From: an archaeon
Lineage (GTDB): Archaea; Micrarchaeota; Micrarchaeia; Norongarragalinales; UBA97
DNA: 64,000 nucleotides
Assembly (NCBI GenBank): GCA_020057405.1
Contig: JAGVFW010000003.1
Location: 124,001 to 188,000, forward strand
Reading direction: 5' to 3'
Part shown: positions 12,284 to 64,000 of the stretch, one piece after another
Position numbering within the stretch: the stretch's first letter is position 1
Layout of the letters: each line of letters starts with the position of its first letter
Notes under the pieces: model-generated
The model's input: the letters and a program-made list of their open reading frames with translations, nothing else
What the model was told of the DNA's origin: nothing
The model's database searches: none
Position numbers and translations under genes: made by a program

Positions 12284-12358
12284 CGGGCCCGGGGGGATTT
12301 GGACCCCCGACATGCTGGTTAAAAGCCAGCCGCTCTGGCCAAACTGAGCTACGGGCCC
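12284..12358 (-). tRNA. tRNA-Lys (anticodon TTT)
   Basis: Reverse complement GGGCCCGTAGCTCAGTTTGGCCAGAGCGGCTGGCTTTTAACCAGCATGTCGGGGGTCCAAATCCCCCCGGGCCCG folds as a cloverleaf; anticodon loop CTTTTAA. Confidence 0.93.
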
Positions 12359-12415
12359 GTTAGTAAATTGTGTGCGGAAAAGTTAATTAGGCGCAGTCTA
12401 CGCAATCGCTTTACA

Positions 12416-13461: not shown

Positions 13462-13512
13462 TTTCGTTCACACTACTAAAAAAACGCGGGCCGTTTGCAG
13501 CCCGGATTTTCC

Positions 13513-14979: not shown

Positions 14980-14991
14980 TTTTCATCCCTC

Positions 14992-34636: not shown

Positions 34637-34673
34637 TCCGGGTTGATTAGTGTTTGCAGTGGTTCTATTGGGG

Positions 34674-43543: not shown

Positions 43544-44101
43544 GTGAAGCATTTCAAAGCCGTCGGCGGCTTGGCGGGCATTTTCTTCAAGCAAAAGCGC
43601 GACTCGCAAACAAAAGACGCCTTGCTCTTCCTCCTCCTCTTCGCGGCCTTCGCGGGCGTAGCCTATGGGGCGCTTTTGGCAACAGGCACGGCGCTTAATT
43701 TGCTTGCGGCAAAGTCAAGCGTGCTCGCGATGGGCGCACTCGGGATTGATGCAAGTGTAGTGCCTAACTCCGACTTTCCGCACATTGTCGGGGAAGTGCG
43801 CGGCACGCCCTTTGAGGCCGAAATCAACGGCCTCTGCGCCGGTGCGATTGAGCTTGCTGTTGTCTTTGGCATCGTGATGGCGAGCCGCGACAAGAGCGTT
43901 CGCGCGAGGCTGCTGGGGGCACTCGGCGGTTTTGCGGTTTTCCTCGCCTTTAACCCATTGCGCATCGCCCTTACGCTGAACGCAGTAGGCAGCTGGGCCC
44001 TGCCACTCTTGCACGACGTGCTCTTCCGTCTCTCGCTTCTCTTCGTCATCGTGGGTTACTACGCAGTGTGGTATTACTCGACCGCGAGCAAGCGTTTTTA
44101 A
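43544..44101 (+). CDS. Archaeosortase/exosortase-family membrane protease-transpeptidase
   Basis: Polytopic; catalytic-type Cys in NGLCAGAIEL (codon 43835), Arg in FNPLRIALTLN (codon 43961), His in PLLHDVLFRLSLLFVIVGYYAVWYY (codon 44012). GTG start inferred. Confidence 0.82.
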   Translation: MKHFKAVGGLAGIFFKQKRDSQTKDALLFLLLFAAFAGVAYGALLATGTALNLLAAKSSVLAMGALGIDASVVPNSDFPHIVGEVRGTPFEAEINGLCAGAIELAVVFGIVMASRDKSVRARLLGALGGFAVFLAFNPLRIALTLNAVGSWALPLLHDVLFRLSLLFVIVGYYAVWYYSTASKRF

Positions 44102-44123
44102 CGAGCCCGCGCTAAGCGTTGCT

Positions 44124-46088
44124 ATGCTCAAGGGCTTCATCTCAGCGCCTCTTCTTGGAACGCTAGTTTTCCTCGGCGCTGTTGTCTTCGTCGTGCACAT
44201 CACGCAGATGGAGAAAGCCGAGGTCAGCAGCATAGTCTCCGACATTTACCACAACCGAGTAACCTCAATGCTCGAAGACTACCGCTACGACATGGGCTCG
44301 CTCTTTGCGGTTGCCCTCTCCCGCGCGATTGAACGCTATCTCTCAAGTGAATGCTGGGAAATCTTCGCGCTCAAAAACGACAATTACGCCGAGCCCGGCG
44401 GTGCCGACGGTGGCGGAATTGCGACGCGGGGCGTGCCGCCCGCGGGCTTTCCTAAAACGGGGCACGCGGACTACAACTACGACGACTTTGGCTGGTGCAG
44501 GAACACCGGCACCGGCGCTAACCCGACCTGCAGCGACGTTAGTGAGACGAACAAGCACCCAAACAACCCGAACTACGATTACCTGTGCGCCGAGAACTGC
44601 AACGGCCAGCTCGACTACTACGAGCTGCGCTACAAAAAGTGCACTGAAATAAGCGACATCATCCGCGACGGCATCTGCCCGTATGACCCCAAGTACGGCC
44701 TGACGGCGTGGCTAAACGCGACGCGAACGCCGTTTAACTTCGAGGGAGTCGGCTTCTCCCTCTCGAACCCCGAATTGGTCGAGACATACGTCTCGCAGAT
44801 TTCCTGCACGTTTAGCGGCCTGGGGACGGTCACCAACACGAACATGTTTGAGTACGACTTGGGCTCAAGCAGCGGCTCGTGCAAGGGACGCGACAACTGC
44901 AAAGTCAAGGTCGGAAACGGCTTCCTTACCTGCGCGAAAAAGGACGGCGTGCCCGACGGCACGCTTTCGGTCGGCGACGGCATCAAGAACTGCAGGCAGC
45001 TTGTGGGCGACAGCCTCTTTGACTGCAGAAACTTCGCAGAGGACTTGGGCAACCCGTACCGCTGCTGCAGCCTCTACTCGAACACTGGAGAATGCTGCGC
45101 GCAGTCCGATGGCCCGTCTAAAGGGTGCGACCAAAAGAGCCACGTCATGCCAGGCTGTGACGGGGGCAGCTTTTTCGTCGGCGTCAACGTGCTTGCAAAC
45201 GACAACGTCTACCGCAGCCTGCCGCGGGTCAACGCAACTGACAAGGGCGGAAACGAAATCCAGGGCGGCGCCCTTGGCGATCGCAACTTCACAATCCACG
45301 TCAAGTACCCGGTCTACAAGTACCTCGACGCGGCCTTCAGAACCTACATGCCAATCGCTTACGGCATTTGCGTGAATTCCGCGCACCCAGAGTACGACTT
45401 TGAGGCGCCCGTTAACATGCGCGTGCACGAAGGCCAGGGCGGCGGCACCAGGTCGTGCCCAAGCGGCAACAGCCCGCAGAGCGACTTTGAGGGAATCATC
45501 GAGGGCCTCTGCTACGGCGAGAGCTGCGGGGGCTTCAACGTCAACCCGGAGTGCCTGGGTTTAAACCCGCCGGCTTATTGCGACACGAAAGGCTTTGAAG
45601 GGAACAACAATGGCCAGCATTTCCGCACCAGGGAAAAAGCAATTGAGTATGCAAGGGCCAAATTCTTAGGCGTGTTTTTGAGCCCCGACCCGGCGGTGGG
45701 GACAAGCGTGTGCCGGCTGTTTCGGCCGCTCCTTTGCGACACTTTCGGCCTCTGCGACACGAAAATGCTCATCCGCGGCATGGGCCTGCAAAACCCTGCG
45801 GACGGAAGCGACGGCTTCTACACTCTTTGCCCGCAACCGCCGGCTAGTTGGGATTCTCCAGACTGGACCGCAATCCAAGCGAAGTTGTCAGTCGACAGCC
45901 TCTTCCGCGCTTATGACGACTGCACAAGGAATCCGAACAACCACCAGGCGTGCGCTGCGGTCAACAGCCTGTCGTTTACGATTAAGTTCGTGGACAAGAA
46001 GGCGGAGACTCTAGTGAACCCCATTGCAAACAACTTCTGCTGGCACATGCGGCCGGTGCACGTTAACCCTACCAAGTCAACGCAGTGA
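44124..46088 (+). CDS. N-terminally anchored, Cys-rich exported protein (654 aa)
   Basis: N-terminal TM ISAPLLGTLVFLGAVVFVVHITQ, then a large extracellular-type region with many cysteines (e.g. RCCSLYSNTGECCAQSDGPSKGC). Confidence 0.8.
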   Translation: MLKGFISAPLLGTLVFLGAVVFVVHITQMEKAEVSSIVSDIYHNRVTSMLEDYRYDMGSLFAVALSRAIERYLSSECWEIFALKNDNYAEPGGADGGGIATRGVPPAGFPKTGHADYNYDDFGWCRNTGTGANPTCSDVSETNKHPNNPNYDYLCAENCNGQLDYYELRYKKCTEISDIIRDGICPYDPKYGLTAWLNATRTPFNFEGVGFSLSNPELVETYVSQISCTFSGLGTVTNTNMFEYDLGSSSGSCKGRDNCKVKVGNGFLTCAKKDGVPDGTLSVGDGIKNCRQLVGDSLFDCRNFAEDLGNPYRCCSLYSNTGECCAQSDGPSKGCDQKSHVMPGCDGGSFFVGVNVLANDNVYRSLPRVNATDKGGNEIQGGALGDRNFTIHVKYPVYKYLDAAFRTYMPIAYGICVNSAHPEYDFEAPVNMRVHEGQGGGTRSCPSGNSPQSDFEGIIEGLCYGESCGGFNVNPECLGLNPPAYCDTKGFEGNNNGQHFRTREKAIEYARAKFLGVFLSPDPAVGTSVCRLFRPLLCDTFGLCDTKMLIRGMGLQNPADGSDGFYTLCPQPPASWDSPDWTAIQAKLSVDSLFRAYDDCTRNPNNHQACAAVNSLSFTIKFVDKKAETLVNPIANNFCWHMRPVHVNPTKSTQ

Positions 46089-46167
46089 CGGCCGGACACA
46101 ATCACTGCTTTTTTAAAGCAGCCTTGCCACAAGTAACTGTCTGTCTTGCAAGTGGGTAAGCGGGGTA

Positions 46168-49100
46168 ATGCGTTCAATGGGTTTGGCCGAGCAATACGAG
46201 GAGTTTCTTGACAAGCTTGATGAACAAGGTTTTCCAAGCCCAAAGATACTAGTTCCCGCACTCGCAATCTTAGCCGTTCTTGCAATAGCCTTCTTCGCCC
46301 TCCCGCTCTTGCAGGGAGTTGCCGGGGGCGGCTCGAAAAAAATACTTCTTGAAGTCCAGGACGCGGGCGGAACTAAAGTCTCCGGCGCTAAGGTAACACT
46401 CCTAACGATTGACGGCACGAAAGTCGATTCAACGGTAACCGACTCAAGCGGCGTTGCCTCTTTTGCCTCCGCACCTGCAAAGGAACTGCAGGTGACTGTC
46501 GAGGCGCCCACCTACAAGGCAGGGTTAATCACGCTTTCCTTCGATAGCCTTGGCGATACGGTCACACTCGAGTCCGACAACGCGCTTGCCAAAGTAAGCC
46601 GCGTGCAGGTTGCAGTCATCGACGAGGCCAGCTTCCCTGTTGCCGGCGCCGCAGTGCGCTTAACTACGTCAGCAGGCGACCGCTCTAGCGTCACCGACGC
46701 TACAGGCATTGCAGAATTCCCGTTTGAAACGCTTCCCGACTCCGCAAGCTTAACTGCGCAGCGCACAAGCTATGACGACGGGGTACTGCAGGGCGTTACC
46801 AAGCTCGAGCTCCAAGGCGCCGCTGACACGCCCATCAGAATCATCCTCAAGAAGCCGGCGCCAACCCCGGCGGCAACTGCAACAGTTCGCGTCACCATCC
46901 TCTCGCCAACTGGCGCCCCCGTAACCGGCGTCCTCGTTTCTCTCGTTGACAGCGCGGGTTCAACTGCGGGAAGCATGCAATCAACGCAGGGAGCGGCAGT
47001 GTTTGACAGCATGGTCCAAGGCAAGACTTACTTCGTGCGCGTGAACGACCCCAAGGGGGCATTCGAGGCGTTTGACGGCCCTGCCTTTACAGTCGACGCC
47101 AACTACAAGGAACTTCAAGTGCAGCTAAAGCGAAAGGCCGCCGAGAAAGTCTACGGCATTGCCGTCGGAATTGAGAACGCAAGAGGCGACCCCATTCCCG
47201 AAGCACAAGTGTCGTTATACTCGCGGGCGACAAACGCCCTCGTTGACACGAAATTCACTGACGAGAACGGCGCCGCGCTCTTTGACGCAACAGCCACCGA
47301 AAGCTACTACGTCACCGCATTCAAGGAAAGCTACTTGCCGGGATTCAAGGCGTCCGCAAAGACGGGAGACAGCATTACACTCACACTTGAAGAACAGGCT
47401 GCGGGCAACTTCGCAGACGCGATAGTGACTGTAACGCAGGACGGCAATCCCGCTTCGGGCGCTGTTGTGTCGCTCGTCGTGCGCGGAGGCTCGCGAAACG
47501 GCTTTTTCCTCGGCCTGCCGACTCTTTACGCCGGTCCCGACGGCATTGCGAGAACGATAGTGCCACGCAAGCTTGACTCTGCTGACTACAAGCTCGCTGC
47601 CTACGCGACTTTGGCCGAAAAGACGGGCGAGAGCGACGCTGTTGCAGTAGGGCAGGAGGGAGCGAAACTGCAGGTCGCTCTAAAGGCGCCCCAAGCATTT
47701 GTTGAGGCAATAGTCACCGACAAGCTCTCCGGCCGCAACGTCTCAAGCGCACTTGCGCAGGCCTTTGCCAACGGCTCTGTCGCCGGCAGCTGCATCACAG
47801 ACGCCCGGGGTGACTGCACGATGACGCTTGAAGCCGGCCGACAGTATACCTTTACTATCGGCGCGCCCGGCTACATTGACTCGACTACCGTCCCCCGGAC
47901 GCTGGCCGCCAACGAGCACTCGGCAATCAACGCCGCGCTCTATTCCGAGGCCGACTTGAAGGGGGCGAAAGCCGAGTTTCTTGGCGTCTTTGACGCTGGC
48001 GAAAACCGCGTTCTTGAAATCGACAACGCGCAAAGCTATCGTGCGCGCTTCCTTCTCTCCGCCCAGCAAGGCAACACGCTTGCCGGCATTCACTTCCGCG
48101 TTGGCAGCGGCACTGACACCGCGCACAACGAGGCGTTCATCACTAAAATCAACGCGCCCGGCGCGACCATGGTAGGCTACGGCCCGGCCCTTGCGGCGCA
48201 AGGCTGCGACGTGCAGGCGAACTCTTCAAACCAGGACGTGCTTGCAAAGTGGGCTGAAGCGGCCTACCCCGCGGGAATCACTTCAAGCAAGCAAATCGAG
48301 TTCACTTTCCGCGTAAAAAACGACGTGCCGGCAGGCACGCACGTTCCAATCGAATACCGCGCTTACGCTTACAAGACGGGCTTGCCGATGCTATCGCCCC
48401 TTGACAAGACCAAGGCAGCGGAACTGCTAAACAAGGCGCAGGGAAATGCCCAAATCACTGCCGCAGACTATTGCGGTGCTGCAAGGGACAACGCCGACCT
48501 GCGCCTCACTAGCCGGCCCCTTGCCTGCGACTCGACCGGCCTGTGCACGCGCTTCTCTTTCGCCAGCACCACGGGCTTAAGCGGCGGCAACGGGTTCCCC
48601 ATCGAGCTTGGCAAGGAATTCTCGCTGCAGTTTACCATAATCTCCCCGCAGGGAATAGACTACACTGGCATTTCCACCGCAAACGCGCAAGTGCTCGGCT
48701 TTGACTACAACACCACCGCGGCATTTAGCGGCACTCCGCTTTCTTCACTAAAGCTGGCAACAGAGACAACCGGCGAGCAGGCCCTTGCAATCAGCGCCTC
48801 GCCCGGGGAGCGGGTTGACGGCACTGTGCGCATGAAGGCAACGCAGCCCGGCGTGCGCGCGCCAGTTGACTTCTTCATCCACGTGCCCGGCGGCGATGCC
48901 AGGCGCGCGCCACTCTTCGTGCGCGTCACTGGCACTAACGCGTTTACGCCCACCACGCAATTTTCCGAATTAATCCTCGGCGTTGACACTAACGAGCGCA
49001 TTACGATAGTTGACAAGCTGGGCAAGCCCGTTACCGACGCGACTTTAACACTCACCGAGTGCAGCGGCTCGCCCCTTGGAGGCAACGAAATCATCATTGC

Positions 49101-52100
49101 GGGAGACGGGTCGACCAACCGAGGCAGAAGCGGCGTTTACCTCATTTCACTTAAGCCATCGGCCATGGGAAGGATGGGAGTGCGGCTAGAGCACACGGAC
49201 TTTGACACTTTCGAGTCCTGCGGCATCACCGTAATCGCAGGCAATTTCATCACAGTAGACCCTGACACCGCCGACTTCTCCGGCAGCTCGACGCCCCAGC
49301 AAGTGCTGCCCATTCACATTGCCTCGACACTGCCGATGCAGTCGCGCGTGAGCACCGCAGTTCGCTGCAGCGTCGGCGGCTCTTACGTTCCAAGCTCTCT
49401 CCTCTCAGTCGAGCCCGCACAATTCACGCTCGATGCATCCGACCGCGATGTTTCGATCAAGCTCACCGAGGGGGGGCGCGCGCAAACCGAGTGCGTCGTT
49501 GTCTTCACGGGCACTGCAGGCAGCGTGAGGACTGTTGCAACGGTCTTTGCAACAATAAACGTCACGTCGCCTCCGACTGCGCAGGAAACCTATCCGCCCG
49601 TCCCCTCAAGCATCAGGCTTGCGGTAGACGACACGGGCGTAGCGCAGGCGTTCTACTACATTGGCGACTTGGGCGAAGTGCGCGGCTGCCGCTTTGCACC
49701 ATCAGGAACCAACCCCATTGACGAGACTGCAATCCAGATGCAGTGCGGCGGGCAAGTACTCTCACTCGCTGTTGCATACAACTTTGCGACCCAATGCCTT
49801 CCCTCGTCCGGCGCGACTGGCCGGATTTTCGTCTCAAGGACAGTCAATGGCTTGCCACAAGCTGACGCCGCAATCGGGCTCGTCTTGACTCCCGGAAGCG
49901 GCGCCAACATTTGCAGCGGGACAAGCGCGACCCCAACGCCAACTCCCGAAGGCGGGGCGACTCCGACTCCTGTTCCAACCGGTTCGCCAAGCCCGACTCC
50001 AAACGGCTATCCGCAATTGCCCTCGCGCGTTGACTTGTTCCTAGACGACTTCGCTTTTGCTGAAAGCTATTATTCCCTTAGCCCTGTTGACGGCCCCATT
50101 TCGGGGTGCGAACTTCGCGCGACGGGGAGCGGCACTGACTCAATAGTGAACTTCGTGCGCATTGACAGCGACGCTTGCGCAAACGGGTTCCTTCACGTCA
50201 TTGCCGACTATAGCGGCTTCCCGGTGCCCCCCGGCCTCTACAAGTCGCTTAAGCAGACTGCGCAAGTGCGGCTTCTGCGCGCAGGACAAACTGCAGTCAC
50301 GCGCGAGCTGTCAATAAGTGCCAGTCGCATGACCGACATTCCGGCAGACGCGCCACGTTGTGGCGACGGAGTGTGTGATTCCGAGCGCGGTGAAGATGGC
50401 GCTTCATGCAGTGCCGATTGCCCGCTTGTCTCAAGCTGCACTGACGGTATCCGCAACGGCGCCGAGGACGGCGTTGACTGCGGCGGAGGCTGCGCAAAGA
50501 ACTGCACTTTCTCGGGCTATCCTGCGCTTCCGGCAACGGTTTCCTTGCGGCTTAACGACGAGGGCCTGGCGCGAAAGACTTACAGCCTCAAGCCAGTGAT
50601 GGACGCCGGCTGCAAGCCCGCATCGTGTGAAGTGCGCGCGTCGTACCTTGACTCGCAAAACCCGCTCACCGCGATTCCAAACTTTGTCTCAGTTGACTCC
50701 GGCCAATGCGCTTTGGGATTGGCGCAAGTGAGTGCGGACTACGGCACGTTCCAGAACCTCTACCGCACTTACGTTGGCATGGGCTCGCTTTACGTGCAGT
50801 GCGAGGATGGCTCTTTCGTGACGCGGCCGCTTCGAGTGTCGGCAGCTGACATGGCAAGCCTGCCTGAGGACCCCGCGACTTGCACTGACCGCATCAAGAA
50901 CCAGCACGAGGAGAATGTCGACTGCGGCGGCCCGTGCAACGCGTGCCCCGCGGCACCCACGTGCACGGATGGAGTCAAGAACGGCAACGAGACTGGCGTT
51001 GACTGCGGCAGCCAGTGCGGCATTTGCGCCGAGAGTCTTTATGAGGCGCTGCCAAACGAAATCAAGCTTTACTTGAACAACGACAGGTTTGCCGAATCGA
51101 CTTACCACACCAAACTATTGTCGGTCAAGCCCGTCACTTGCTCGCAGTTGCGTCCTGCCGGGTTCTTCGAGGACCAGGAACCGTCAACGCTGATTACAAA
51201 TTACGTCCAGCTTGACTGCAGCGGCGGCATCGTGCACGTCACCGCGGATTACGCAGGCTTCCCGACTGAATTATTGTGGCGCGGCCTTTCCCACGGAGGC
51301 AGCTTCCAGGTGAGCTTCGAGCCCATTGCCGGTAGCGGTGCGGTAGGCGGAGTTTCTTCAGGCGTCCAGCCCGGGCCCATGCTAAAGAAAACAATCCGCG
51401 TGATTGTGAGTGCGTCTAATGTTGACGGCGCGCAAATGACTCAGCCCGTCACCGGCATTGACTCGCTTCCAAACTCGATTGTCCTAAACGTTTACTCGCA
51501 GCAAAGCACTCAGCCCGGCCAGTTCGGCGGCGGAAGCGCGTTTGGCATTGACACGGGCAACCAGCGGACGGTGAAAGTCAAGTTCTTGCGCGAACCCGAT
51601 TGCACTCTACAGGGCTTCCTTGGGGCTGGTGCGGGCGGCCAGTTCGGCGGCGGCATTCCGGGCATGCCTTACGGCGCGCCACAAATCGCGTTCCAGCCGC
51701 AATCCTACTGGCAGGGCGCCCCACTGGCAGATGCAGCGGCAATACTCTACCCCGCAAGCGTTCCCCAGTCTTGCAGGGTTCCGGACGTGCTTACTAACCC
51801 CGAACTTTGTCCCGTTTGCCAGCAATACTTGCCCGGATTCAACTACTTTGAGCCCGGCGCCTTCTCCAAACAGTCAATGCAGGAACAGCGGCCGGCTCTG
51901 CAAACACAATACCCGTGGGTTGCAGGCGGCAATCCCGGCTACAACAGCTTCCAGCAGCCCTACGGCGGCTATTCCGGCTACGCTGGCCAGTCGCAACTTG
52001 GTTATGGCAGCAGCCAGGGCAGCTTTGCCGGAATGCAGCAGCAAGTCAATCCAGTTGCAATAGGCTTCCCAACCGGCCTGCCCCCAGGATGCCAGTTGCC

Positions 52101-54129
52101 CTACGTTTGCAGCAACCCGCAAGCTTGCCAGCTGAGTTACTGCAACGCACTCGTTGTCGGCGGCAAGGCGGCCCTGCAGGCGGCCGGAGCGCAAGTGAGC
52201 ATGCAGCCGACGGTAAGCTGCAGCAGGGACGAAATTACGGTTGTCGCAAACTACTTGGGCACCACGCCAACTAGCGGCTTTACGCAAACCAACACGCTCA
52301 AAGTAAGTGAGACCACACCCTCAGGTAAGGTGCGCACAAAGAATGTTCAAGTGCTCATCAACGTCTTAAGCTCATTTAGTTCCAACAGCATTCCGACACA
52401 GTCGTTCCAGCCAATGTGGTGCAGCCAACCCATTGCGGGACTGCAAAGGGGCCAAGTAATCCGCGTCACTGACTATGACACTGACAAGACGGGCGTGCCA
52501 AAGTCGATTGAAATCAAGCTCAACCCGATTACCATGAAGGGCGAGTACTCGACCGTGATTCCGGTCAAGTCGCCCGACGGCTCGCGTGTGCCCCTTTTGT
52601 GCGACAAGAGCCAAATGAGCCTCAGGGGCGGGCCTGACGTGCAACTTGATTGCGGCGATTCAGGCGCGCTGCACTTCGTCCTAGACTATTCGGGCACTAG
52701 CGTTGCGGGCCAGTGGCAGTCCGCGCCCGACTTCCCGCAAAGCATTTCCGATTCAGGCACTTTCCGCATCAAGCTCACTTCAGCCGGCCCAACCCTCGAA
52801 TTCCCCGTTGCAGTCAAAGTCGTCCCAGATGACTTCGCGCCATGGCAGATTGCGCTAATGGTTGACGCAAAGACTGGCAAGGCCGTTAGCAGCGAGTTCA
52901 AGTCGAGCACTAAGCTCTCGACGACGATGCTCAAGTCCATCATGGCCGCCGCGACAAGCATTAGCGCTTCCGCAAACGGCAATTCGTTCTTCATCGACGC
53001 AGCGTTCAAGAAGGGCGACGACTTGAGCAAGGCGAAGGGCACGGCGTTTATCGCCACGCGGCCCAAGCGTGAAATCGCAATCTACGCAGCGCAAGTGCCC
53101 AACAAGATGACTGTTACGCTTGCCAAGAGCGGAGATTCAATCACGATTGCGCCAAATGGCTGTAGCGACGGTGCCACCAAGTGGGACCCCGAAGGCGACA
53201 GCGACACTTGCGCATACCGCTTCTACCCCAAGGCAACGTCGTTCTCGCTGCCGGTTGGGTGCAGGCTTGACGCCAAGACCAGCGTGTCTGCAAGGCCTAG
53301 TGGCGATCAGTTCGCAACCGACGTGATTCTCTTTGACACAGGCGGCCCCACCTGCAACGCGGGCAAAGGCATCTTCCTCAAGCTCGACCCGCAGGCAGTT
53401 GCCGAAATCATGGCGCAAAACGCCGCGACGCCATTCGAGTTACTCAAGCTGCCGTTCCAAGTTACGCTGCAGGTTGGCGACGACCCGGCAACCGCATCGT
53501 CTTACACCATCCACGGCATGGCACTCGGTCCCAAGGCAAGCGCTTACTCAACAGCAGCTGATGCGGAAATGACACTCAAGGCACCCCTTGGCACCGCCGA
53601 CTTTGACGAGGAGACGGGCACTGCAAAGGCGACGCTTGCCGCGCCCTCAAAGAGGACTGCGGCACCCAGCCCCATAAAGGCGGGCGCCAACCGCTATGTC
53701 GGAGTCAAGTTCCCCAAGATTGTTGACGCAGGTGCGACGGGCACCAGCACTGCCGGCCTGCGCGTTGCAACCGAGGACGGCACCACGCTCTTCGCTTGGG
53801 GCAGCTTCAAGTGCGCTTCTGACGACAAGGGCTGCAAGCCACTGAAGCTGGAAGAGGACATCGGCCCCGATGGTATACACTACTTCAAAGTGCCGTTTGG
53901 CAAGGCCGCAAAGTATACTGTAGAGTCGACGGCACGCATTAGCGGCAAGAAACTTTCCGCAAAGGTAGACGTGCCGACCGACAGCGACGCCAATGTCGAG
54001 AAGCAGAAACCACCGGCAACAACGCCAGTCAAGAACTTAAACGGGCAGTCGGTAGCACCAAACACGCCGCCAGCGAAAACAACGACGGCTAAGGGCAAAA
54101 AGCCACTCAACGTAATAGGATTCGGATAG
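46168..54129 (+). CDS. Giant N-terminally anchored surface protein (2653 aa) with carboxypeptidase-regulatory-like domains
   Basis: N-terminal [26 protein letters not shown]; repeated [37 protein letters not shown]-type modules; PT linker; CTDGxxNGxExxVDCGG cysteine motifs. Confidence 0.9.
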
Positions 54130-54131
54130 AA

Positions 54132-55331
54132 ATGAGAAAACTTTTCGCGCTGACTGCTTTCCTTGCGATTGCGGCAATAGTGTCAGCCGCGTCAATCACT
54201 ATTGACTCTGCCACTTACGACAAGGACAAGGCGGTCGGGTCAAAGAGCGCAAACCAAGTAATAGGGTTTGTGGAAATTCCCGAAGAACAGATTTCCATCG
54301 CTGGATTTTTGCTCGACAGCAGCGGCAACTCGCTTAAAACCACGGCGGCACAGGCCTTTGACGGCGCCAAGGGAAAGTTCGCAAAAGTAACGGTTAACGT
54401 CGGCGATTCCAGCAAAAAATCGAAACTCAAGCTCCAGGGGGGCGCGGAATACGAGAGCATGGTTGAACTAAAATTCGGCACTGGCGAGGCAACCGGCACC
54501 GGCAACAACTACGCAGTAAAGAAGGTAATTGGCGTGTTTGCCGGAGAAAGCGGCCGAAGCCAAATTTCAGCGGCTCCCGCGGGCACTAAAGTAGTTATTT
54601 GGATGGAATTTGACTCGAATGTCGTCAAGGACGGCGGCAAGGTAAACATGAAATTCAATTTCGGGGGCGACAACCTGGATGCAATCGTGGGCGGGAAAGA
54701 CACGGCCATAATCAGCAGCAACACATTTGACGTTCCCGTGCGCAAGGACAGGGCTTCAGGAATGCTTTACGGAATCGGGACTTGGACGCTGCCGGAACTG
54801 AGCAAATACGACTACCAGAACACATGGATTGCAGCGATAGAAACGAAAATTTCAGAAGGCTCATGGACGCCATTCACCATCTTGCCCAAAGGAAAGTACG
54901 GCAAGAGCATCTACTTGGGCAACGGCGAGGCACTCCTTGCCCAAAACAGCTTACTGGCAATGAATGTCAACGGAAGGACACGCAAATTCAAGCTCCTTCA
55001 GCACGGCAACGTATTTACAAATGGGGCAATCGGCACTGCAATAAAAGTATTCGACGAAAAAGGCAGCCAATACGACTGCGACGCTTCGGTATTCAGCGGC
55101 GAACTTCTCCTAGAGCCCGGGGAAACGAAACCCTGCTGGGACGACAAGGCGCACCTTAAGGTAAAAGACATTGGCGGAGCCTATTGCGACGGGGCGGTAT
55201 TCACCCAAGGCTCGGTTGTCACAGGAAAAATTATCTTAAACCTAGTTACGTTTGGCATGGGCTCTTGGATACCCATCTACCGGTCCTGCGACTACTACGA
55301 AGGCAGGTTCAAGATAATCCCCGTAGGCTGA
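54132..55331 (+). CDS. Exported protein, unknown function (399 aa)
   Basis: Signal peptide MRKLFALTAFLAIAAIVSAA; start 2 nt after the preceding stop, so likely co-transcribed. Confidence 0.8.
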   Translation: MRKLFALTAFLAIAAIVSAASITIDSATYDKDKAVGSKSANQVIGFVEIPEEQISIAGFLLDSSGNSLKTTAAQAFDGAKGKFAKVTVNVGDSSKKSKLKLQGGAEYESMVELKFGTGEATGTGNNYAVKKVIGVFAGESGRSQISAAPAGTKVVIWMEFDSNVVKDGGKVNMKFNFGGDNLDAIVGGKDTAIISSNTFDVPVRKDRASGMLYGIGTWTLPELSKYDYQNTWIAAIETKISEGSWTPFTILPKGKYGKSIYLGNGEALLAQNSLLAMNVNGRTRKFKLLQHGNVFTNGAIGTAIKVFDEKGSQYDCDASVFSGELLLEPGETKPCWDDKAHLKVKDIGGAYCDGAVFTQGSVVTGKIILNLVTFGMGSWIPIYRSCDYYEGRFKIIPVG

Positions 55332-55401
55332 GCTCGGCAATTCGAGTACGCCCCACCAAATTCTTTTTAAACTGCCGAGTGGCTAATTAAAGCGGTTGTA
55401 G

Positions 55402-58400
55402 ATGGGGGAAGGCGAGCAATCAGAAGGCTCTGGCGGCATTTACCACCAGCTTGAGGACAAGTATTACGACTTGTGCGACTGGCTGGTAGAGAAGGGAATG
55501 CCCGTCTACCAGTATTGGGTTGAGCCCATTGAGAAAAATGGCGTCCCCAGCTTTCCAATCAGCGTAATTATTCTCTTCGCGCTTCTTTTCGCAATCGGTT
55601 TTGGCCTCGGCGCATTTGGCGGGGTCGGCAACATATTCGCTCCCCAGACGGCGTCACTTGACGTCTCAGTCCTTGCAGATGGCGCTGCCGTCGCGGGAGC
55701 GCAAGTGAGCCTCACTATAGACGGCGGCAAGACGTTTACAGCCACTACCGACAGCGGCGGCACGGTTTCCTTCTCGGGCCTGCCCAAGGGCGCGCGCGGC
55801 GTCATCGAAGTCACTAAAGACGGTTATGGCGTGCTAAAGCGCGCGGTAGTCATCGGCGAGCCGGTCACGGCAAGCCTTCAGGCGTCTGAAGTCACTCCCC
55901 CGCCAAGCCAAAGGACCGTAGTCACTTTCGTTGACGAAAAGACGCAGACGCCCCTCGATGGCGTCAAAGTCGTTTACCGCGACTCGAAGCTCGGCGTGCA
56001 GGAGCTCGCGAGCTCTGCCGACGGCAAGGCGGAACTGCCGGTCTCTGACGACACGGTCACGATTTTCGTCTCCTACGACAACTACAAGCCCACACGCGAA
56101 GTCATTACGGCGGGGAGCACGAACAAAATCGTCTTCCTTACGGCAGTGACATCGCCCCCGCCCGAAGGCTGCACTGGAGTTAACTGCCCGCAGCCAAAGG
56201 CAAGCGTTGCAGTCACTGTCGTTGACCCGGACGGCAATCCCGTTGACGGCCTCGTGCAGCTCTTCGAGTCCGGCAACACGGCTGGGCCCAAGTCGGCCCG
56301 CACTGCAAACGGCGTCGCCCTCTTTGAGGACGCAAAAGCTGCTGGCGTCACCGTCTACGCGGTTTTCACTCCAGACGACACTGCTACTTTCGGCAACGCG
56401 CAAAGCGAGTCCCTCACCCTAGCCGAGGGCTCAAACGATTTGGTCGTCACTGTTGCGACAAGGCCGCTTGAAGGCACGATAAAGATTGACTTGACGGTTC
56501 AGGACGATGCCGGGAGCAAGATTAGCGGGGCACGCGTCATGCTCTTTCTTGCCGGCAGCACCGACCCGGTCTCAATCCAGGAGACTAACGAACTTGGAAT
56601 CGCTTCATTTGAGGCGGCCTCAAATGTCGAGAAAGTCGCAATTGCCTACTCCCCCGGACTTCTTCCAAGCGACAAGCTCTTGATGCAGTCAACGAGCCAG
56701 TACGGCACGCTAGTCCTCAAGAAACCGATTGCCGGAAACAGCGGGAAAGTGAAGGTCGCGGTTACCGACACTGACGGCCACACGCAAGTCGCCGGGGCGG
56801 ATGTGGAGTTGCGCTACTTTGAGGACAACTACCCGCTCGGCATGCCACCAATCCAGACTAACGAAGTGGGCGAGGCACTCTTTGAGCTCGTGCCCCCAGA
56901 CAAGCGCTTCATTGCAGTAGCTTCATACGGCGCGCAGAGGGGTAAGAGCGCCGGCTTTACGGGCTCTGCAGGCAACACGGTCAACGTGCCCGTCAAGCTC
57001 GACAAGGCCCGCGGCGACATCGCGATTCTAGTGCGCGACCCCATCTCGCACAACCCGATTGCTAACGCGAACGCAACTGCCACGGTCCAACGCAATCCTG
57101 CCGGCCAGTGCGCCACTAACGGCCAGGGCACTTGCGTCATCAAGAACGTCGAGGCAAACACTGCAGTCACTCTCTCGGTAAACGCCCCCGGCTATGTCGT
57201 CAAGACCATCGACGGCCTCTCGGTCCCCGCACTTGGAATCCTAAGTGTCATCATTGAGGACGACCTCGTGCCCGCAGCGCTTGCAAACGAGAGCCGCCTG
57301 CACGTGGCACTCTACGACCCAAGCTGCGGCACACCCATTGCCTCAAGCGCGATTGAAAAGGGCAGGACTTACTGCGTGCGCGTTGACTTCAACCTGCCGA
57401 CAGCGCAGGCAAATCCGGTTGGCTTTAACGTTAGGATAAACGGCGATGGCACGGCTGACGCCGACTTCGCCTCAGTCACTTACTTCCAGGACCTCGACGT
57501 TTTGCGCCTGACTCCAGACAAGCTAACAATAAAGCGCTCAAACGACTACGCCACAGCTGCCGGCTATTCGTGCGACGACGCGCACAGAAAGAGCGCGAAC
57601 AAGCCGATTAAGTGGGTCAACTACGAGTTCCAAAACGTGCAGGGCAACAAGGCCATTCTCCTAAAAGTTTTTGTCAAGCCATCGGCGCAAAACGGCGACA
57701 AGCTTTCACTCAACTACTTTAGCTACGCAGCCCGGGACGGCCGCTTCTACCGCGTGCCGCAGGATGCCGTGCTTAGCACTCAACGGTCCACCGCAGCACG
57801 CGACTGGTGCCAGGCGACTTCAAGCACTGCGGAGTACACCATTGCGGACGGCACGGTTGCTTACTCCAAGGACGGCGCCCTCGGAATCAGCTTCTCGCAA
57901 GCAAAGGACGGCCCCCGCGCGTCATCGCTTGCAACGCAGCCCGGCAACGGCTTTTTTGTCCACTTTTCGGGCCGCCTCTTTAGCGCCCCGACCGCGCCCT
58001 TCATCAACGTCTACTTCGCCGACCCCGCGGGCAACAAGCGCGCCTACGCCCTCTTCAATGAATTTTCCTACAGCATCGGCGGCATCAGCCTGGCCGCAAG
58101 CCGCATTGACTTCCAGTCGCCAACGCCCAGTCCCTCTCCCGATCCGACGCCCACGCCAACCCCATCACCAACTGCAACGCCCTCCCCAACGCCTAATGCT
58201 ACGGCAACTCCGTCGCCGACTCCACCGCCCGGGCCAACCAACCTCACAGTCACCGTAACCACCTGCTCAAGCGGCTCGCCACTTGCTGGCGCAACAGTCA
58301 ATGCTGGCAACGACATCCGCAACACTGATTCCCACGGCGTCGCGTTCTTCCCGGCAATGGCCCCCGGCCAAGTGCAGCTCTCGATTAGCGCAACGAATTA

Positions 58401-61400
58401 CGTCACCCGCGGTGCTGGAGTGCAAATCAACCAAGGACAGGCCAACACTTTCTCCACTTGCCTCAACAGGCAAGGCGAGACTGGCGGAGGCGGGGGCGAG
58501 ACCGTCGGCGGCGGGCCCATCAACAACTTAAGCGAGTACCGCATCAACATCGACCCTGCTGCAATCCCAGTCCGTGACGGAGTGTGGGAAGTCGCAGGAT
58601 GGCTTCGCGCAACAGCCGCAGTTCCAATTCCCGCAGGCCGGGTGTTCGCCGAGTTTGGCGACGACGGTAGGCCCGACAACCAAGTTGTCGTGCGCAGCAA
58701 CGCCTCAATCCGCATTTACGGCACTGGTCAACTAGTCATCGAAGCGACGCCGGTGCAAATCTACGCAGGCACTGACACGCGCGTTGTCGTCGTCATCAGG
58801 ACTGCACAAGGCGCACCCGTAACCAACACCATCTTGAGTGTAAACAACATTGACGGCACCGACTCGCCGTTTGGCAGCCAATACAGCAACGGCGACGTCC
58901 AACTCGTCGGCGATAACACGCGCGACCGCGGGCAGGACGGCAGGTACGTCTTTACACTTAGGCCGCTTCGCTCGGGCACATTTACATTTGCAGCGGGCGG
59001 CAACTATGACCCGCGCTTTGCCTCCGGGGTCCTCTTAGAGAATGTCGTGCACCACAACTTCGCGGAAGCGACGCCAGCGTCACTATCGCTTGGCTGCACT
59101 GCGCAAACGCTTAGCGTGCGCAACTCACTCGACTACTCAAGCGCCCCGATACAGGTTTTCGTCCGCGAAAGCTGCGTGACCGTGACGGGTGCGACTTGCG
59201 GCACGGTAAACGGCAACACCAACTGCTCTTTTGTCCTCGAACCCCTGGCGGAAAAGACTCTCACGATAACGCCAAAGTTCTCCGGCGACTGCCCGATCGT
59301 CGTTTCCTCAAATCCGGCGCCGCTTCTGCAGTCCAGCCAAACGGTTGGCACTTCAATCGACTGCGCGCAGCTGGAGAGCTCCTGCGCCATCTCTTTTGAC
59401 AAGGACTTTGTGACAGGCGGAGCGCAGGGAACGGTGCGGGCAACCGCGACTTTCGCCAACCTGCGGCCAAGCGACCCTGCAACCAACATCAGCTGCGATT
59501 ACCCTGATGCCGAGGGCACGCGCGTTGGCATTTCCGGCGGAGTAGCCCGCCGCCAGTGCACTTACGCCGAAGTCGGCGGCTTTACTGAATTCACCGTCCA
59601 CGCGGTAAGCGACGGCGGAGTCGAGTGCAGCCAAACGATTACGGTCCTCCCGCCCTCTTCAGTGCCAACTTGCTCCCTAACGTCAAGGCCAATCAATGGA
59701 ACGACGATTGCGCGGCTTAGCGCGGACTTCTTCAACCTGCCAACTTCAATCCAGAAAGCGTTCTTCTTCTGCACGCCCAACGACGACCCCCACGAGGTTG
59801 ACGTCACCCCAAGCGAGGGCGTCGCAAGCGCTACTTTCGACTGCGACTACGCGACGCAAAACGGCGGGCTCTTCAACGCAAGCGCCGCGGCCGGCACTGC
59901 ATTCTGCTTTAACCCGAATGTGCGGCTAACACCACAGGACTCTTGCGCCTTGGGCGGCGAGCAACTGCGGTTCGGCAACTGCTCTACTTCAGCGTCGTGG
60001 CTGCGCTGCGACGAGTCGCCCTCAAACCCTGCAATTGCGCAAGACGCCGCCTGCTGCAGCGAAGTGCTAGGCAGCGGCAGGGTGCTAAAGAACAGCCCAT
60101 CAGTCCACTGCGGTCCAGTCAACCCGCCCCAAGGCAAGTGCGATGACGGAATTGCAAGCCCCGGCGAATGCGGCAGCAACGGGGCGGCGCCACTGCCCTT
60201 GCGCTGCGGCAATGACTTTACGTTTGCAACCGACGGCGCTTGCTGCGCCGAGGTGCTCGGCTACACTTACGACGCCAGCAGGCACGCGTGCATCAAGCCG
60301 TCAACTGCAGGCAAGTGCGTCGTTACCGATGGTACCACTAATGTCGTCACCGACTACGGCGTGTGCTCAACCGTTTACTCTGGCCAGAAATGCGAGGGCG
60401 ACGCCTCCGCACCTGCACTCAAGGGCGAGAACGCCTGCTGCCCGCAGGGACAAGTCTACAACGACAACGCAAAGAAGTGCGTGCCGTCAAACCAGGGCTC
60501 AAGCTCTTGCAGCAGCTTTGCCGACCCCGGCCGCTCAAACTGCTTGAGGCCAAACGCAGTCGGCGTGCCTGCACCATTCCAGTGCTCTGACAGCACGCTA
60601 CAGCAGGAGGGCGCCTGCTGCACCAACATTGTCTCTAACGGCAAGAAGTTCCGCCAGAGCACTGACGGGAACTATTGCGTTGAAATCCCGGCTAATGAGC
60701 TTACACCCGACTGCACGCTAAATGTCACGTCATACACGCGGGGTAGCGTGAGCGAACAGGGTAGCTTAAACGCGACGCTAGTTGCGCTAAACGGCTTTGG
60801 CGGCGGTAGCGGCAAGTTCGACTACTCGTGCGACCGTGGCGTGGCGCAAACGCGCACTCAAACATTTACTATTTCCAACACCCCAGGCGTGACGAAAGGA
60901 CTGCAGTTTAACTGCGACTACCCGCGCCAGTGGCTCGACTATTCAGTAATGCCGGCCACTGCAGCGATTGTAAGCAACAACGAACGCCAGGCCAGCATTG
61001 CCTGCACCTTGGGCGGCCCTGCCGATGTCATCCGCGACGGAGTGATTATCGTGCGGGGCACGAGCGGTGCCAACCTAACGTTCACTGCAAAAGCTTTTGC
61101 CGGCTCGACAGACTGGACGCAACTGACAGAGCGCCTCTTAGGTCCGCTCTCTAGCGTGACGCTCAAGGTGAAGGCGACGTCGCTGCCAACTGGCGTTACC
61201 TCGAGTCAAGTGCACCTTACTTTCGTCTGCGACTCGAGCGAAGAAGAGTCGCAGCAGCAAATGACGGCCTCGCGGACCGAGCAAAACACTTGGACTGGCT
61301 TCTGCAGCTACGCTTCAGCGCGGGGCACGGCCTTCCCGGCAACCCATTCCGCCCGCGCGTTCTACCAAATCGAGGCGACCAACCAAAGCGGCACTTTCAT

Positions 61401-64000
61401 CATACCACCAGTGCCCGCAGGCATCAACGCGGGCTTCCCGCCAATACTAGAGTACGACGCTCCCGTTGCAGCAGGCTTTGCTGAATTCTCTGGCCTGCCT
61501 TACGACGTGCTTCATGCTGCCACTCCACAAGACCAGTCAATGAAGGTAGGGCTTAGCGCGCTTTTCACCGGCCTGCCGCCCTCAATCAACGCTCAATTCA
61601 CTACCGACTGCGGCAACGGCGGACAGACGGTTCAGGCAAGCGCCCTTGCAAGCACTGATGGGAAGGCGACTGCGAAGTTCAACTGCACTTACTCCTCGGG
61701 AACTCCCCAGGACTTCACGGTAAAGGCGCGCTTTGACTACAAGGGGCTTAGCGGCAACCGCATTCTCGCGGCGAATGCAGAAAACACGGGTTCGGTTGCT
61801 TACGCCCCGTCGGGCTCGAATGCCGCGTGCACGTTTGACACCCTGCCGGCGCAAATCATTGCGGGCGACCCCAACTTGAACAACTTCCAGCCCATAGCCC
61901 GCGTGCTTGGCCTGGTGAAGGCACCCAAGTCAGTGCGCATCGACTGCGGCAATGGCGCTCAGGTTGACGCCCGCCTCGAGAACATCGCAGGCGAGGGCCA
62001 GTCGGTTGCAGTGAAGGCAACCGCGAGGACGGCTTGCCGCTACGACTTTAGCTTCCTGCAGGAGGGAGGCACTCAAGTGCAATTCAAGGACGCTCAGCTG
62101 GCAGTGTTTGTCGACGGCGGCGACTGCGAAGTTGCAGGCGGCAGCGAAGTGCACGTCGTTTCCGACAACAACACTCCGACCCTTGCGCTTGCGGGTTTTG
62201 AAGTGACGCCGGCGACTGGCGACCAACTCAACCAGGACGGCAGCGTAAAGACGCCCGGCACTAATGCGGTTGCAAGCTTCACCCCAACCGCAACGGCCGC
62301 ACACGCAATCGCGGACGCGACTTTCAGCGCGAAGATTGACTGCGGCACTGGGAGCACAACCGCGGGAAGCCCGACGACAGTGCAACTGCCTGACGACGGC
62401 AGCGGAACCGTGTTTGCAGCTGATGGCCAAAGCAAGTGCGAGTACAAGCCAGTTGTCGCGGACGCGCAACGCAAGATTACCGTTTCACTCTACCGCACTG
62501 CAGGTTCCAAGACGAACAAGGTCGGTTCTGTGCAAAACACGTTCACGCAAGTCAAGACGCCTGCGCAGGGCGCGGAGTTCCAAGCCTGCAACAACCCGAT
62601 GATGATGATGCTCATGTTTGGGCAAATGAGCGGCGAGGTAGGAGTTGACCAGGGTGTCGAGAACTCCGAGCGCGCGGCCCTGCTTCGGGCCCAGGCGCAA
62701 AAGCTTGCAGACCAAGGGAAAGCCATCGTGCTCAATGCAGACGGCTTTGCAACGAGCCCTGCTGCAACGAGCCGCACGGCTTACTTGTCTTCAGTAATCG
62801 GTTCTTTCGCCACCGAACCCGTTCCGGTCGTCAACCTAGTGCCATCAGCCAACCCCATAACTTTCGACGTCAACGTCCCTGGCGACGGCGCGTCCTGCCT
62901 TACGCCGTCAATCTACGGCGGCACTCCCAACGGGCAGTCAAGTGTAAAGCTTAAGACCGGGCAGACCGCAGCGGTTGCCTTCAGAATCAACCCCGCCGGC
63001 TGCCAAAACATCGCCCAAATCGGAGTCGAGATACGCGCCCAGGTCTCTGGCTCTCCACGCAGTTCAATCATCATCGTCAGCATAGTCAAGCTTAATGGCC
63101 TTGACGCGTACAAGTCGGTCACCGCACCCGGCAACACGGCGGTTCAATTGAGGACAAAAGCTGCAAACCCGCAGGAGCCGTTCGTCATCAACGCCCAGTA
63201 CCAGCCGCTTGCAAGGGACGCGTTCCCGCAGGGCGTGACTTCAGCGATAGTGCCGTTTGATGCGGCGAAACTCGAGAAGCTCGTGGCGTTTGACGTGGTG
63301 GGCAACTCGCTGTCTTCCGACCCGAACGCTGCCCTTGGCTGCAGCGGCAAGGACTTCTGCACGCCCAAGCAGGCGCAAGCCGCGGCCGACAAGCTGGCAG
63401 GCGAAATCGCCGCCGCAATCGGCCCGGTTTCGTCCAAGCGCACTGACTCGGTTCCCCAAGACACGTACATGCGCGCGCTCGCCGACGAGCTTTACAAGCA
63501 AAACTCTGTTTTCGGCAACCAAGTCCAGCAAAACGGCGGTCTTCAGGGCGGACTCTTCAGCAGCCCGCTCGGGCTCTTGGCAATGGGCGGGTTTGGCGGC
63601 AACACGGGCGGTTCGCAAGCCTGCGCCGCGATGATGCAGTGCACAATAATGATGAAGCAGCTGCTCAAGAACAACGCCGCCCTCGGCCCCGACGCACAGG
63701 CGCTTCCACTCATCTTCTGCTCTGACAAGAAAGTGCAGGAATCGCTCTCAAAGGGCGACTCGAGCCAGTTCACCAACCTGTTCATACTCTCGTCGCTTTC
63801 CAACCGGGTCCAGCAGCAAAAGGGGACGATCAAGACCGGCGGCGGTTACGTGATAATGCGCGGACAGGGCCAGGGCGCACAATCCAACTACCCGCTTTCG
63901 ATTCCAATACGCGTTTCGCAAACCAAGGACAGCGAGTCTTCAATGCAGCAAATCACCTGCGACATCAGAAGCGAACTTGACGTCAAATGCAGCCCCAAGC
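55402..64000 (+). CDS. Giant N-terminally anchored surface protein, >2860 aa, open at right window edge
   Basis: Manual translation from ATG 55402: MGEGEQSEGSGGIYHQLEDKYYDLCDWLVEKGMPVYQYWVEPIEKNGVPSFPISVIILFALLFAIGFGLGAFGG...; no in-frame stop noticed to 64000. Missing from the ORF track because no stop lies inside the window. Confidence 0.88.
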   Translation, partial: MGEGEQSEGSGGIYHQLEDKYYDLCDWLVEKGMPVYQYWVEPIEKNGVPSFPISVIILFALLFAIGFGLGAFGGVGNIFAPQTASLDVSVLADGAAVAGAQVSLTIDGGKTFTATTDSGGTVSFSGLPKGARGVIEVTKDGYGVLKRAVVIGEPVTASLQASEVTPPPSQRTVVTFVDEKTQTPLDGVKVVYRDSKLGVQELASSADGKAELPVSDDTVTIFVSYDNYKPTREVITAGSTNKIVFLTAVTSPPPEGCTGVNCPQPKASVAVTVVDPDGNPVDGLVQLFESGNTAGPKSARTANGVALFEDAKAAGVTVYAVFTPDDTATFGNAQSESLTLAEGSNDLVVTVATRPLEGTIKIDLTVQDDAGSKISGARVMLFLAGSTDPVSIQETNELGIASFEAASNVEKVAIAYSPGLLPSDKLLMQSTSQYGTLVLKKPIAGNSGKVKVAVTDTDGHTQVAGADVELRYFEDNYPLGMPPIQTNEVGEALFELVPPDKRFIAVASYGAQRGKSAGFTGSAGNTVNVPVKLDKARGDIAILVRDPISHNPIANANATATVQRNPAGQCATNGQGTCVIKNVEANTAVTLSVNAPGYVVKTIDGLSVPALGILSVIIEDDLVPAALANESRLHVALYDPSCGTPIASSAIEKGRTYCVRVDFNLPTAQANPVGFNVRINGDGTADADFASVTYFQDLDVLRLTPDKLTIKRSNDYATAAGYSCDDAHRKSANKPIKWVNYEFQNVQGNKAILLKVFVKPSAQNGDKLSLNYFSYAARDGRFYRVPQDAVLSTQRSTAARDWCQATSSTAEYTIADGTVAYSKDGALGISFSQAKDGPRASSLATQPGNGFFVHFSGRLFSAPTAPFINVYFADPAGNKRAYALFNEFSYSIGGISLAASRIDFQSPTPSPSPDPTPTPTPSPTATPSPTPNATATPSPTPPPGPTNLTVTVTTCSSGSPLAGATVNAGNDIRNTDSHGVAFFPAMAPGQVQLSISATNYVTRGAGVQINQGQANTFSTCLNRQGETGGGGGETVGGGPINNLSEYRINIDPAAIPVRDGVWEVAGWLRATAAVPIPAGRVFAEFGDDGRPDNQVVVRSNASIRIYGTGQLVIEATPVQIYAGTDTRVVVVIRTAQGAPVTNTILSVNNIDGTDSPFGSQYSNGDVQLVGDNTRDRGQDGRYVFTLRPLRSGTFTFAAGGNYDPRFASGVLLENVVHHNFAEATPASLSLGCTAQTLSVRNSLDYSSAPIQVFVRESCVTVTGATCGTVNGNTNCSFVLEPLAEKTLTITPKFSGDCPIVVSSNPAPLLQSSQTVGTSIDCAQLESSCAISFDKDFVTGGAQGTVRATATFANLRPSDPATNISCDYPDAEGTRVGISGGVARRQCTYAEVGGFTEFTVHAVSDGGVECSQTITVLPPSSVPTCSLTSRPINGTTIARLSADFFNLPTSIQKAFFFCTPNDDPHEVDVTPSEGVASATFDCDYATQNGGLFNASAAAGTAFCFNPNVRLTPQDSCALGGEQLRFGNCSTSASWLRCDESPSNPAIAQDAACCSEVLGSGRVLKNSPSVHCGPVNPPQGKCDDGIASPGECGSNGAAPLPLRCGNDFTFATDGACCAEVLGYTYDASRHACIKPSTAGKCVVTDGTTNVVTDYGVCSTVYSGQKCEGDASAPALKGENACCPQGQVYNDNAKKCVPSNQGSSSCSSFADPGRSNCLRPNAVGVPAPFQCSDSTLQQEGACCTNIVSNGKKFRQSTDGNYCVEIPANELTPDCTLNVTSYTRGSVSEQGSLNATLVALNGFGGGSGKFDYSCDRGVAQTRTQTFTISNTPGVTKGLQFNCDYPRQWLDYSVMPATAAIVSNNERQASIACTLGGPADVIRDGVIIVRGTSGANLTFTAKAFAGSTDWTQLTERLLGPLSSVTLKVKATSLPTGVTSSQVHLTFVCDSSEEESQQQMTASRTEQNTWTGFCSYASARGTAFPATHSARAFYQIEATNQSGTFIIPPVPAGINAGFPPILEYDAPVAAGFAEFSGLPYDVLHAATPQDQSMKVGLSALFTGLPPSINAQFTTDCGNGGQTVQASALASTDGKATAKFNCTYSSGTPQDFTVKARFDYKGLSGNRILAANAENTGSVAYAPSGSNAACTFDTLPAQIIAGDPNLNNFQPIARVLGLVKAPKSVRIDCGNGAQVDARLENIAGEGQSVAVKATARTACRYDFSFLQEGGTQVQFKDAQLAVFVDGGDCEVAGGSEVHVVSDNNTPTLALAGFEVTPATGDQLNQDGSVKTPGTNAVASFTPTATAAHAIADATFSAKIDCGTGSTTAGSPTTVQLPDDGSGTVFAADGQSKCEYKPVVADAQRKITVSLYRTAGSKTNKVGSVQNTFTQVKTPAQGAEFQACNNPMMMMLMFGQMSGEVGVDQGVENSERAALLRAQAQKLADQGKAIVLNADGFATSPAATSRTAYLSSVIGSFATEPVPVVNLVPSANPITFDVNVPGDGASCLTPSIYGGTPNGQSSVKLKTGQTAAVAFRINPAGCQNIAQIGVEIRAQVSGSPRSSIIIVSIVKLNGLDAYKSVTAPGNTAVQLRTKAANPQEPFVINAQYQPLARDAFPQGVTSAIVPFDAAKLEKLVAFDVVGNSLSSDPNAALGCSGKDFCTPKQAQAAADKLAGEIAAAIGPVSSKRTDSVPQDTYMRALADELYKQNSVFGNQVQQNGGLQGGLFSSPLGLLAMGGFGGNTGGSQACAAMMQCTIMMKQLLKNNAALGPDAQALPLIFCSDKKVQESLSKGDSSQFTNLFILSSLSNRVQQQKGTIKTGGGYVIMRGQGQGAQSNYPLSIPIRVSQTKDSESSMQQITCDIRSELDVKCSPK

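Follow-up and report, generated by a model that had tools for sequence, protein, structure and literature searches.

Art1, a putative order-specific archaeosortase family encoded beside pilin-like and giant surface proteins in Norongarragalinales

Introduction

Archaeosortases are known through the C-terminal tags of the proteins on which they act. A 64,000-nucleotide stretch of DNA from a genome of the archaeal order Norongarragalinales, the whole of which is referred to here as the window, encodes an archaeosortase-like protein at the head of a run of very large surface proteins. A sequence-only reading of the window saw no recognised tag on the complete proteins of this run and proposed that the locus uses an unrecognised sorting signal or a different substrate logic. 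What, then, does this enzyme act on, and which feature of its partners would it recognize? In this article, we consider the enzyme, its conserved partners, their relation to type IV pilus genes and the candidate signals at both ends of the surface proteins. No description of this locus was found in the literature searched.

Organization of the locus

The source genome comprises 1.22 Mb in 17 contigs, and the archaeosortase-superfamily gene, here called Art1, resides on contig C6. The main features of the locus are listed below by their positions in the window.

41282-42492, + strand: two small genes (180 and 223 aa) upstream of Art1, likewise located ahead of Art1 in two same-family relatives (L025, L035)
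43544-44101, + strand: Art1, archaeosortase-superfamily protein of 185 aa, GTG start
44124-46088, + strand: P654, large pilin-like protein of 654 aa with 32 Cys, a Cys-rich head and no C-terminal transmembrane segment (TM)
44130-44195, + strand: P654 residues 3-24, a conserved N-terminal stretch reading [KR][AG]F[IV][AS][AS]PL[IL]GT followed by a TM
46168-54129, + strand: G1, giant protein of 2653 aa with 56 Cys and CarboxypepD_reg / Ig-like domains
54132-55331, + strand: P399, exported protein of 399 aa with a signal peptide
55402-64000 in the window, ending at window-equivalent position 65571, + strand: G2, giant protein of 3389 aa with 85 Cys

The coordinates, strand and sizes given for this run by the sequence-only reading were all reproduced, and the protein that it recorded as longer than 2860 aa is G2, whose full length of 3389 aa emerges when flanking sequence is included. 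Intergenic gaps measure 22 bp between Art1 and P654, 79 bp between P654 and G1, 2 bp between G1 and P399, and 70 bp between P399 and G2. The same-strand run extends beyond the window end, where the flanking sequence adds SecF and then SecD downstream of G2, giving the order Art1, P654, G1, P399, G2, SecF, SecD.

These genes differ in how widely they accompany Art1. Protein family searches returned no family match for P399, and an exported protein fills its slot in one relative (L026), which places P399 outside the order-wide core. Both P399 and SecD/F were considered as parts of the system and set aside because their conservation with Art1 is seen only locally, within the family. G2 begins with EKNGVPSFP and a TM, and several further genomes of the order encode relatives of more than 3000 aa. 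About 73 kb upstream of Art1, the genome of the window also encodes a G2 paralog of 1107 aa, with an N-terminal PVYEKYINPLEKRGVPSFP and a TM (L119:11519-14842; G000:C6:91519-94842). The window also encodes, at 34650-41243, a 2197-aa surface protein with an N-terminal signal, NT-rich Ig-like repeats and a C-terminal TM followed by RKNKRGR; two related proteins of the same layout are found upstream of Art1 in another genome (G001).

Art1 and the archaeosortase/exosortase superfamily

Comparison with protein family models places Art1 in the archaeosortase/exosortase superfamily, as had been proposed from its sequence. Art1 reaches the cut-off of TIGR04178, the exosortase/archaeosortase family model, with 23.0 bits against a cut-off of 23 in the protein search and with 25 bits when the genome was searched, and all 23 Art1 relatives match this model at E<=0.01. 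The Cys, Arg and His residues that had been noted in the expected motifs are invariant across these relatives, which indicates that the constellation is under strong constraint. Invariant positions in the 23 sequences are F29, C98, E103, G125, N137, R140, I141, H157, F161, R162, Y173 and W176, and they include the motifs N137xxR140 and H157xxxF161R162. C98 is the single Cys of Art1 and, together with R140 and H157, is predicted to form the active site. An AF2 model of Art1 built from these sequences alone has a pLDDT of 90.5 and a pTM of 0.83; the PDB contained nothing meaningful that resembles Art1, either by sequence or by the fold of the model.

Within the superfamily, Art1 reaches the cut-off of no named archaeosortase subfamily among the NCBIfam models. 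Its scores fall far below those required for ArtB (21.8 versus 150 bits), ArtD (19.9 versus 125 bits) and exosortase H (17 versus 86 bits), and it has no match to TIGR04125 (ArtA) at E<=1. Among the 23 relatives, four match TIGR04125 weakly and eight match TIGR04124 (ArtE) weakly. Art1 may represent a catalytically intact enzyme of a new, order-specific subfamily of the superfamily that serves a type IV pilus-like surface system, a reading to which we give even chances.

Distribution and co-inheritance of Art1, P654 and G1

The family profile detects Art1 as a single copy in 27 of 29 Norongarragalinales genomes and in none of the 266 genomes sampled elsewhere in the phylum. Its orthologs score 144-220 bits, and everything else in the 295 phylum genomes scores at most 47 bits; the matches of at most 47 bits inside the order correspond to a paralog, Art2, described below. 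The N-terminal profile of P654 gives a single copy in 27 of the 29 genomes of the order and none in the 266 others of the phylum. When about 85,000 genomes were scanned with the P654 N-terminal pattern, 21 loci were recovered, all of them from Micrarchaeota or unnamed archaea. G1 is likewise represented by a strong match to its N-terminal profile in 27 of 29 order genomes, the weaker matches being G2-type giants. Genomes without one of the members are incomplete, or the gene would fall beyond a contig end; in G006, for example, Art1 lies only 82 bp from the end of its contig.

Gene order is also retained. Of the 26 genomes having both Art1 and P654, 20 have the two genes no more than about 2 kb apart, and P654 and G1 are adjacent in 19. 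Six genomes have Art1 and P654 on different contigs, and in family f1 Art1 has moved to another contig. In family f7 (L037, L041, L042), Art1 is found outside the module and adjoins a HemK-like methyltransferase gene.

Genome comparison thus supports single-copy co-inheritance of Art1, P654 and G1 together with their gene order, and the recurrence of this order across families bears out the earlier placement of Art1 with the giant-protein cluster. All of the association falls within one clade, and co-occurrence by itself is therefore a weak sign of interaction. The better argument for a tie among the three genes appears to be that their adjacency persists through rearrangements.

N-terminal features of P654 and G1

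The conserved signal of the cluster seems to be N-terminal, consisting of a class III prepilin-like segment on P654 and an EKG[FIV]PxP motif on G1. Every P654 member with a complete N-terminus carries [KR][AG]F[IV][AS][AS]PL[IL]G(T) followed by a TM, and the window copy has the class III-type sequence K-G/FISAPLLGT. All of these members satisfy the archaeal prepilin rule, in which a charged residue at -2 and Gly or Ala at -1 precede a hydrophobic helix (PMC4371748). Conservation of the protein is highest in its first 22 residues, with a pairwise identity of 0.66 versus 0.26 from residue 76 to the end. In the AF2 model of P654, which is of moderate confidence overall (pLDDT 67), a single 69-residue helix spanning residues 7-75, mostly at pLDDT ~73-86, leads into the Cys-rich head. 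Searches of the PDB gave nothing meaningful for P654 by sequence, and the head matches no PDB fold. P654 is much larger than ordinary pilins. Its N-terminus, its long predicted helix and the pilus genes linked to it nevertheless mark it as pilin-like, and a role in a filament is predicted.

G1 is organized differently, with a cytosolic N-terminal helix, a 12-residue motif, one TM and then CarboxypepD_reg / Ig-like domains, which match Pfam PF13620 in six stretches (3.4e-29). The N-terminal alignment identifies EKG[FIV]PxP as the conserved motif preceding the TM. G1 was also considered as a class III prepilin and rejected, given the Pro at +2 and, in the window copy, the Gln at -2.

Association with type IV pilus genes

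The genes for a T2SSE ATPase or a T2SSF platform protein are located within about 9 kb of Art1 in 11 of 27 genomes, belonging to families f3, f4 and f6. Gene maps of G011 and G028 show a pilin-T2SSF-T2SSE-ValRS group divergent from Art1-P654-G1, and those of G009 and G019 show the same divergent layout with no pilin visible. In four further genomes (G007, G026, G017 and G021), the T2SSF gene ends within a few bp of Art1 or overlaps it, and Pfam confirms both T2SSE and T2SSF at the equivalent locus of G017. Art1 is distant from the pilus machinery in families f1 and f7. In the genome that contains the window, Art1 is on contig C6, and a ValRS-ATPase-T2SSF group with several class III-like pilins is on contig C8 (L143); the T2SSE assignment there is confirmed by Pfam, and T2SSF is recognised by homology, below the Pfam cut-off. 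The prepilin peptidase (PF01478) is present in 40 of 40 genomes. T2SSE ATPases are found also in Micrarchaeota that lack Art1, which makes the Art1-P654-G1 module an addition to a common machine. Taken together, gene neighbourhoods suggest that the conserved partner set of Art1 is specifically P654 and G1, with a tie to type IV pilus genes.

Several other features of these pilus loci were observed. The C8 cluster (G000:C8, L143:5588-10004 and 12347-16000) encodes pilins with Gln at +1, in the sequences RG/QAFE and RG/QASWG, and a 196-aa protein with GPIGDDIPSIFP near its N-terminus; a protein of more than 1200 aa encoded near the cluster has the N-terminus MRKA/FLSSDKPFAALV. An intein that includes a LAGLIDADG domain is present in the T2SSE pilus ATPase of UBA95 (L083:1800-5561), and a 1258-aa ATPase (L085:1641-5417) probably contains an intein as well, judging from its length and split match.

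A possible role for Art1 in a pilus-like machine

These features can be assembled into a tentative model. The shared machinery would comprise the T2SSE ATPase, the T2SSF platform, small class III pilins and the prepilin peptidase. To this, the module would contribute Art1, P654 as one large pilin-like subunit, and G1 as a giant Ig-like adhesin or stalk with an N-terminal TM anchor. The prepilin peptidase would cut P654 after [KR][AG], and P654 would then be built into a pilus or pseudopilus, either at the tip or as a minor subunit. G1, whose cytosolic helix and EKG[FIV]PxP-TM segment are conserved, could dock on P654. At the outer membrane face, Art1 would use C98 with R140/H157/R162 to cleave or transfer a component of the complex, P654 or G1 in the first place, and that component would be either released from the envelope or attached to it. 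Recognition would rely on the conserved N-terminal segments close to the membrane instead of on a C-terminal tripartite tag.

This role for Art1, as a component of a pilus machine that processes P654 or G1 via N-terminal membrane segments and needs no C-terminal sorting signal, is put forward as a possibility well short of probable. The hypothesis that Art1 reads the N-termini of P654 and G1 faces a difficulty of topology, since an N-in orientation puts the start of the conserved motifs on the cytosolic side. Archaeosortases are considered to work on the outer side of the membrane, and to our knowledge none acts on an N-terminal TM.

C-terminal tags and the second archaeosortase

Art1 might instead be an ordinary archaeosortase whose substrates lie elsewhere and carry an unrecognised C-terminal tripartite tag, its adjacency to P654 and G1 reflecting co-regulation of surface proteins. 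We regard this as possible but would not call it probable. It agrees with the known chemistry of the superfamily, which is C-terminal (PMC7157517), and the ends of the surface proteins bear on it directly. Within the cluster, P654 members and complete giants all end without a TM and basic tail, and the earlier observation that the complete proteins carry no recognised CTERM was thereby upheld. Nor is there a PGF-CTERM substrate set elsewhere in the genome: PGF-CTERM (PF18204) was found in none of 40 genomes, and the Haloferax and Methanosarcina controls were detected. Simple sequence rules applied to about 37% of the window's own genome yielded few TM-plus-basic ends and no common motif.

Two groups of candidates were rejected. 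C-terminal hydrophobic stretches of G1/G2-type giants (L034, L039, L044) are situated about 60-115 residues from the end and lack a basic tail, and so they are not CTERM anchors. The window neighbour at 34650-41243, whose terminal TM and basic tail would suit an ordinary archaeosortase, was discarded as a substrate because no conserved motif precedes its TM and because it falls outside the order-wide module.

Some relatives do encode proteins of the expected form. An Ig-like Cys strand precedes tails of the type P[DE][LV]P/S, TM and K/R in three proteins of G025 and in G023, G002 and G011, with PELP, PDVP or PDLP before the TM and R/K-rich ends; in G025, the three are paralogous large surface proteins encoded on the Art1 contig, about 8-18 kb from Art1. 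The loci that bear this candidate new tag are L163, L164, L165, L166, L167 and L168. The P[DE][LV]P/S-TM-basic tail is a plausible candidate CTERM, of which the literature searched held no description. Its presence in four relatives keeps the classical C-terminal explanation alive. Against this explanation, such tails occur in only four of 29 order genomes and none was found in the genome of the window (about 37% of which was also rule-scanned), and a general enzyme would not be expected to show single-copy co-inheritance with P654.

A second superfamily member, Art2, offers a better candidate for such tails, since it is present in nearly all of these genomes and is encoded beside a lipid gene. 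Its position is as follows.

C6:195020-195604: Art2, 27 kb downstream of Art1 and about 7 kb beyond the end of the window
L002:8504-9605 (G000:C6): region containing Art2 and CarS

In each of the 17 genomes of the order that were examined, Art2 directly adjoins the gene for CarS, which we take to be CDP-archaeol synthase from its sequence. Art2 is also the one match of the genome to TIGR04125, at 19.9 versus 75 bits. In Haloferax, ArtA-dependent anchoring requires PssA/PssD, for which action on CDP-archaeol has been proposed (PMC7157517). Given this requirement and the neighbouring CarS, Art2 is likelier than Art1 to be the lipid-anchoring enzyme, which would free Art1 for a special role. The strict Art2-CarS pairing suggests a lipid source for classical anchoring in this lineage, with the donor pathway coupled to sorting.

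The initial proposal of an unrecognised signal or a different substrate logic is thus retained in part. The cluster proteins lack a CTERM, as that proposal held; what has changed is that there are two archaeosortases, that the partners are P654 and G1, and that the conserved motifs are N-terminal. Given the P[DE][LV]P tails of the four relatives, an ordinary C-terminal substrate set may yet exist somewhere in these genomes.

Other substrates and shared ancestry

The targets of Art1 in pilus assembly or maturation could also be the small pilins or membrane proteins associated with T2SSF, and not P654 or G1, as may hold for ArtE in Methanococcus. The four genomes in which T2SSF abuts or overlaps Art1 fit this alternative, with P654/G1 located elsewhere in two of them, and ArtE is needed for transformation, a process that also involves a type IV-like pilus (PMC10133366). 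We nonetheless consider it unlikely: the N-termini of the small pilins are of the ordinary class III type, these proteins lack a C-terminal TM, and across the phylum the pilus machinery is present in genomes that have no Art1. A purely historical linkage, in which the three genes originated jointly in the order's ancestor and were simply passed on, with no functional tie between Art1 and its neighbours, is highly improbable: every association does fall within one order and Art1 is detached in family f7, yet Art1-P654 and P654-G1 have mostly stayed together through many other rearrangements (T2SSF-abutting, ValRS-divergent and the f1 contig move).

Significance and comparison with known systems

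Distribution and gene order point to a real and new archaeosortase subfamily that spans the order and has unusual partners, and the single-copy trio offers a short list of candidate substrates. If the proposed role in a pilus-like machine is correct, the module would place the unexplained requirement for ArtE in DNA uptake by archaea in an evolutionary context. It would also illustrate how largely uncultured DPANN archaea, some of which are thought to be host-dependent, build their surface adhesion gear. Recognition of N-terminal segments, if true, would make the Art1 system categorically new.

Among characterized enzymes, ArtA of Haloferax volcanii (TIGR04125) shares with Art1 the TIGR04178 superfamily, a catalytic-type Cys and Arg, a multi-TM architecture and an association with surface proteins. 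In contrast to ArtA, Art1 is found in a genome without PGF-CTERM, its partners are untagged C-terminally, and it is not encoded beside lipid-head-group genes. ArtE of Methanococcus maripaludis (TIGR04124) resembles Art1 in its connection to a pilus-related process and in the weak match of its model to eight of 23 Art1 relatives. ArtE is required for transformation and DNA uptake in M. maripaludis, alongside type IV-like pilus genes, and thereby sets a precedent for an archaeosortase in a pilus-related process (PMC10133366). However, Art1 is not an ortholog of ArtE by the model, no P654/G1 module is known for ArtE, and the ArtE gene, MMJJ_17200, is far from the epd pilus genes in locus numbering (PMC10133366). 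More distantly, ArtB and ArtD show weak profile similarity to the window Art1 over the catalytic region, with scores far below the curated cut-offs, and XrtX, XrtM and pacearchaeosortase show weak profile similarity over the same region to some Art1 relatives.

The closest parallel for the neighbouring genes is provided by the archaeal type IV pilus systems. No locus described in a census of these systems, whose text does not contain the word 'sortase', includes an archaeosortase (PMC4858521). Their T2SSE, T2SSF and class III pilin machinery is the same as that found beside the Art1 module, and large extra proteins encoded at archaeal pilus loci have been proposed to be minor pilins, adhesins or PilY-like tips (PMC4858521).
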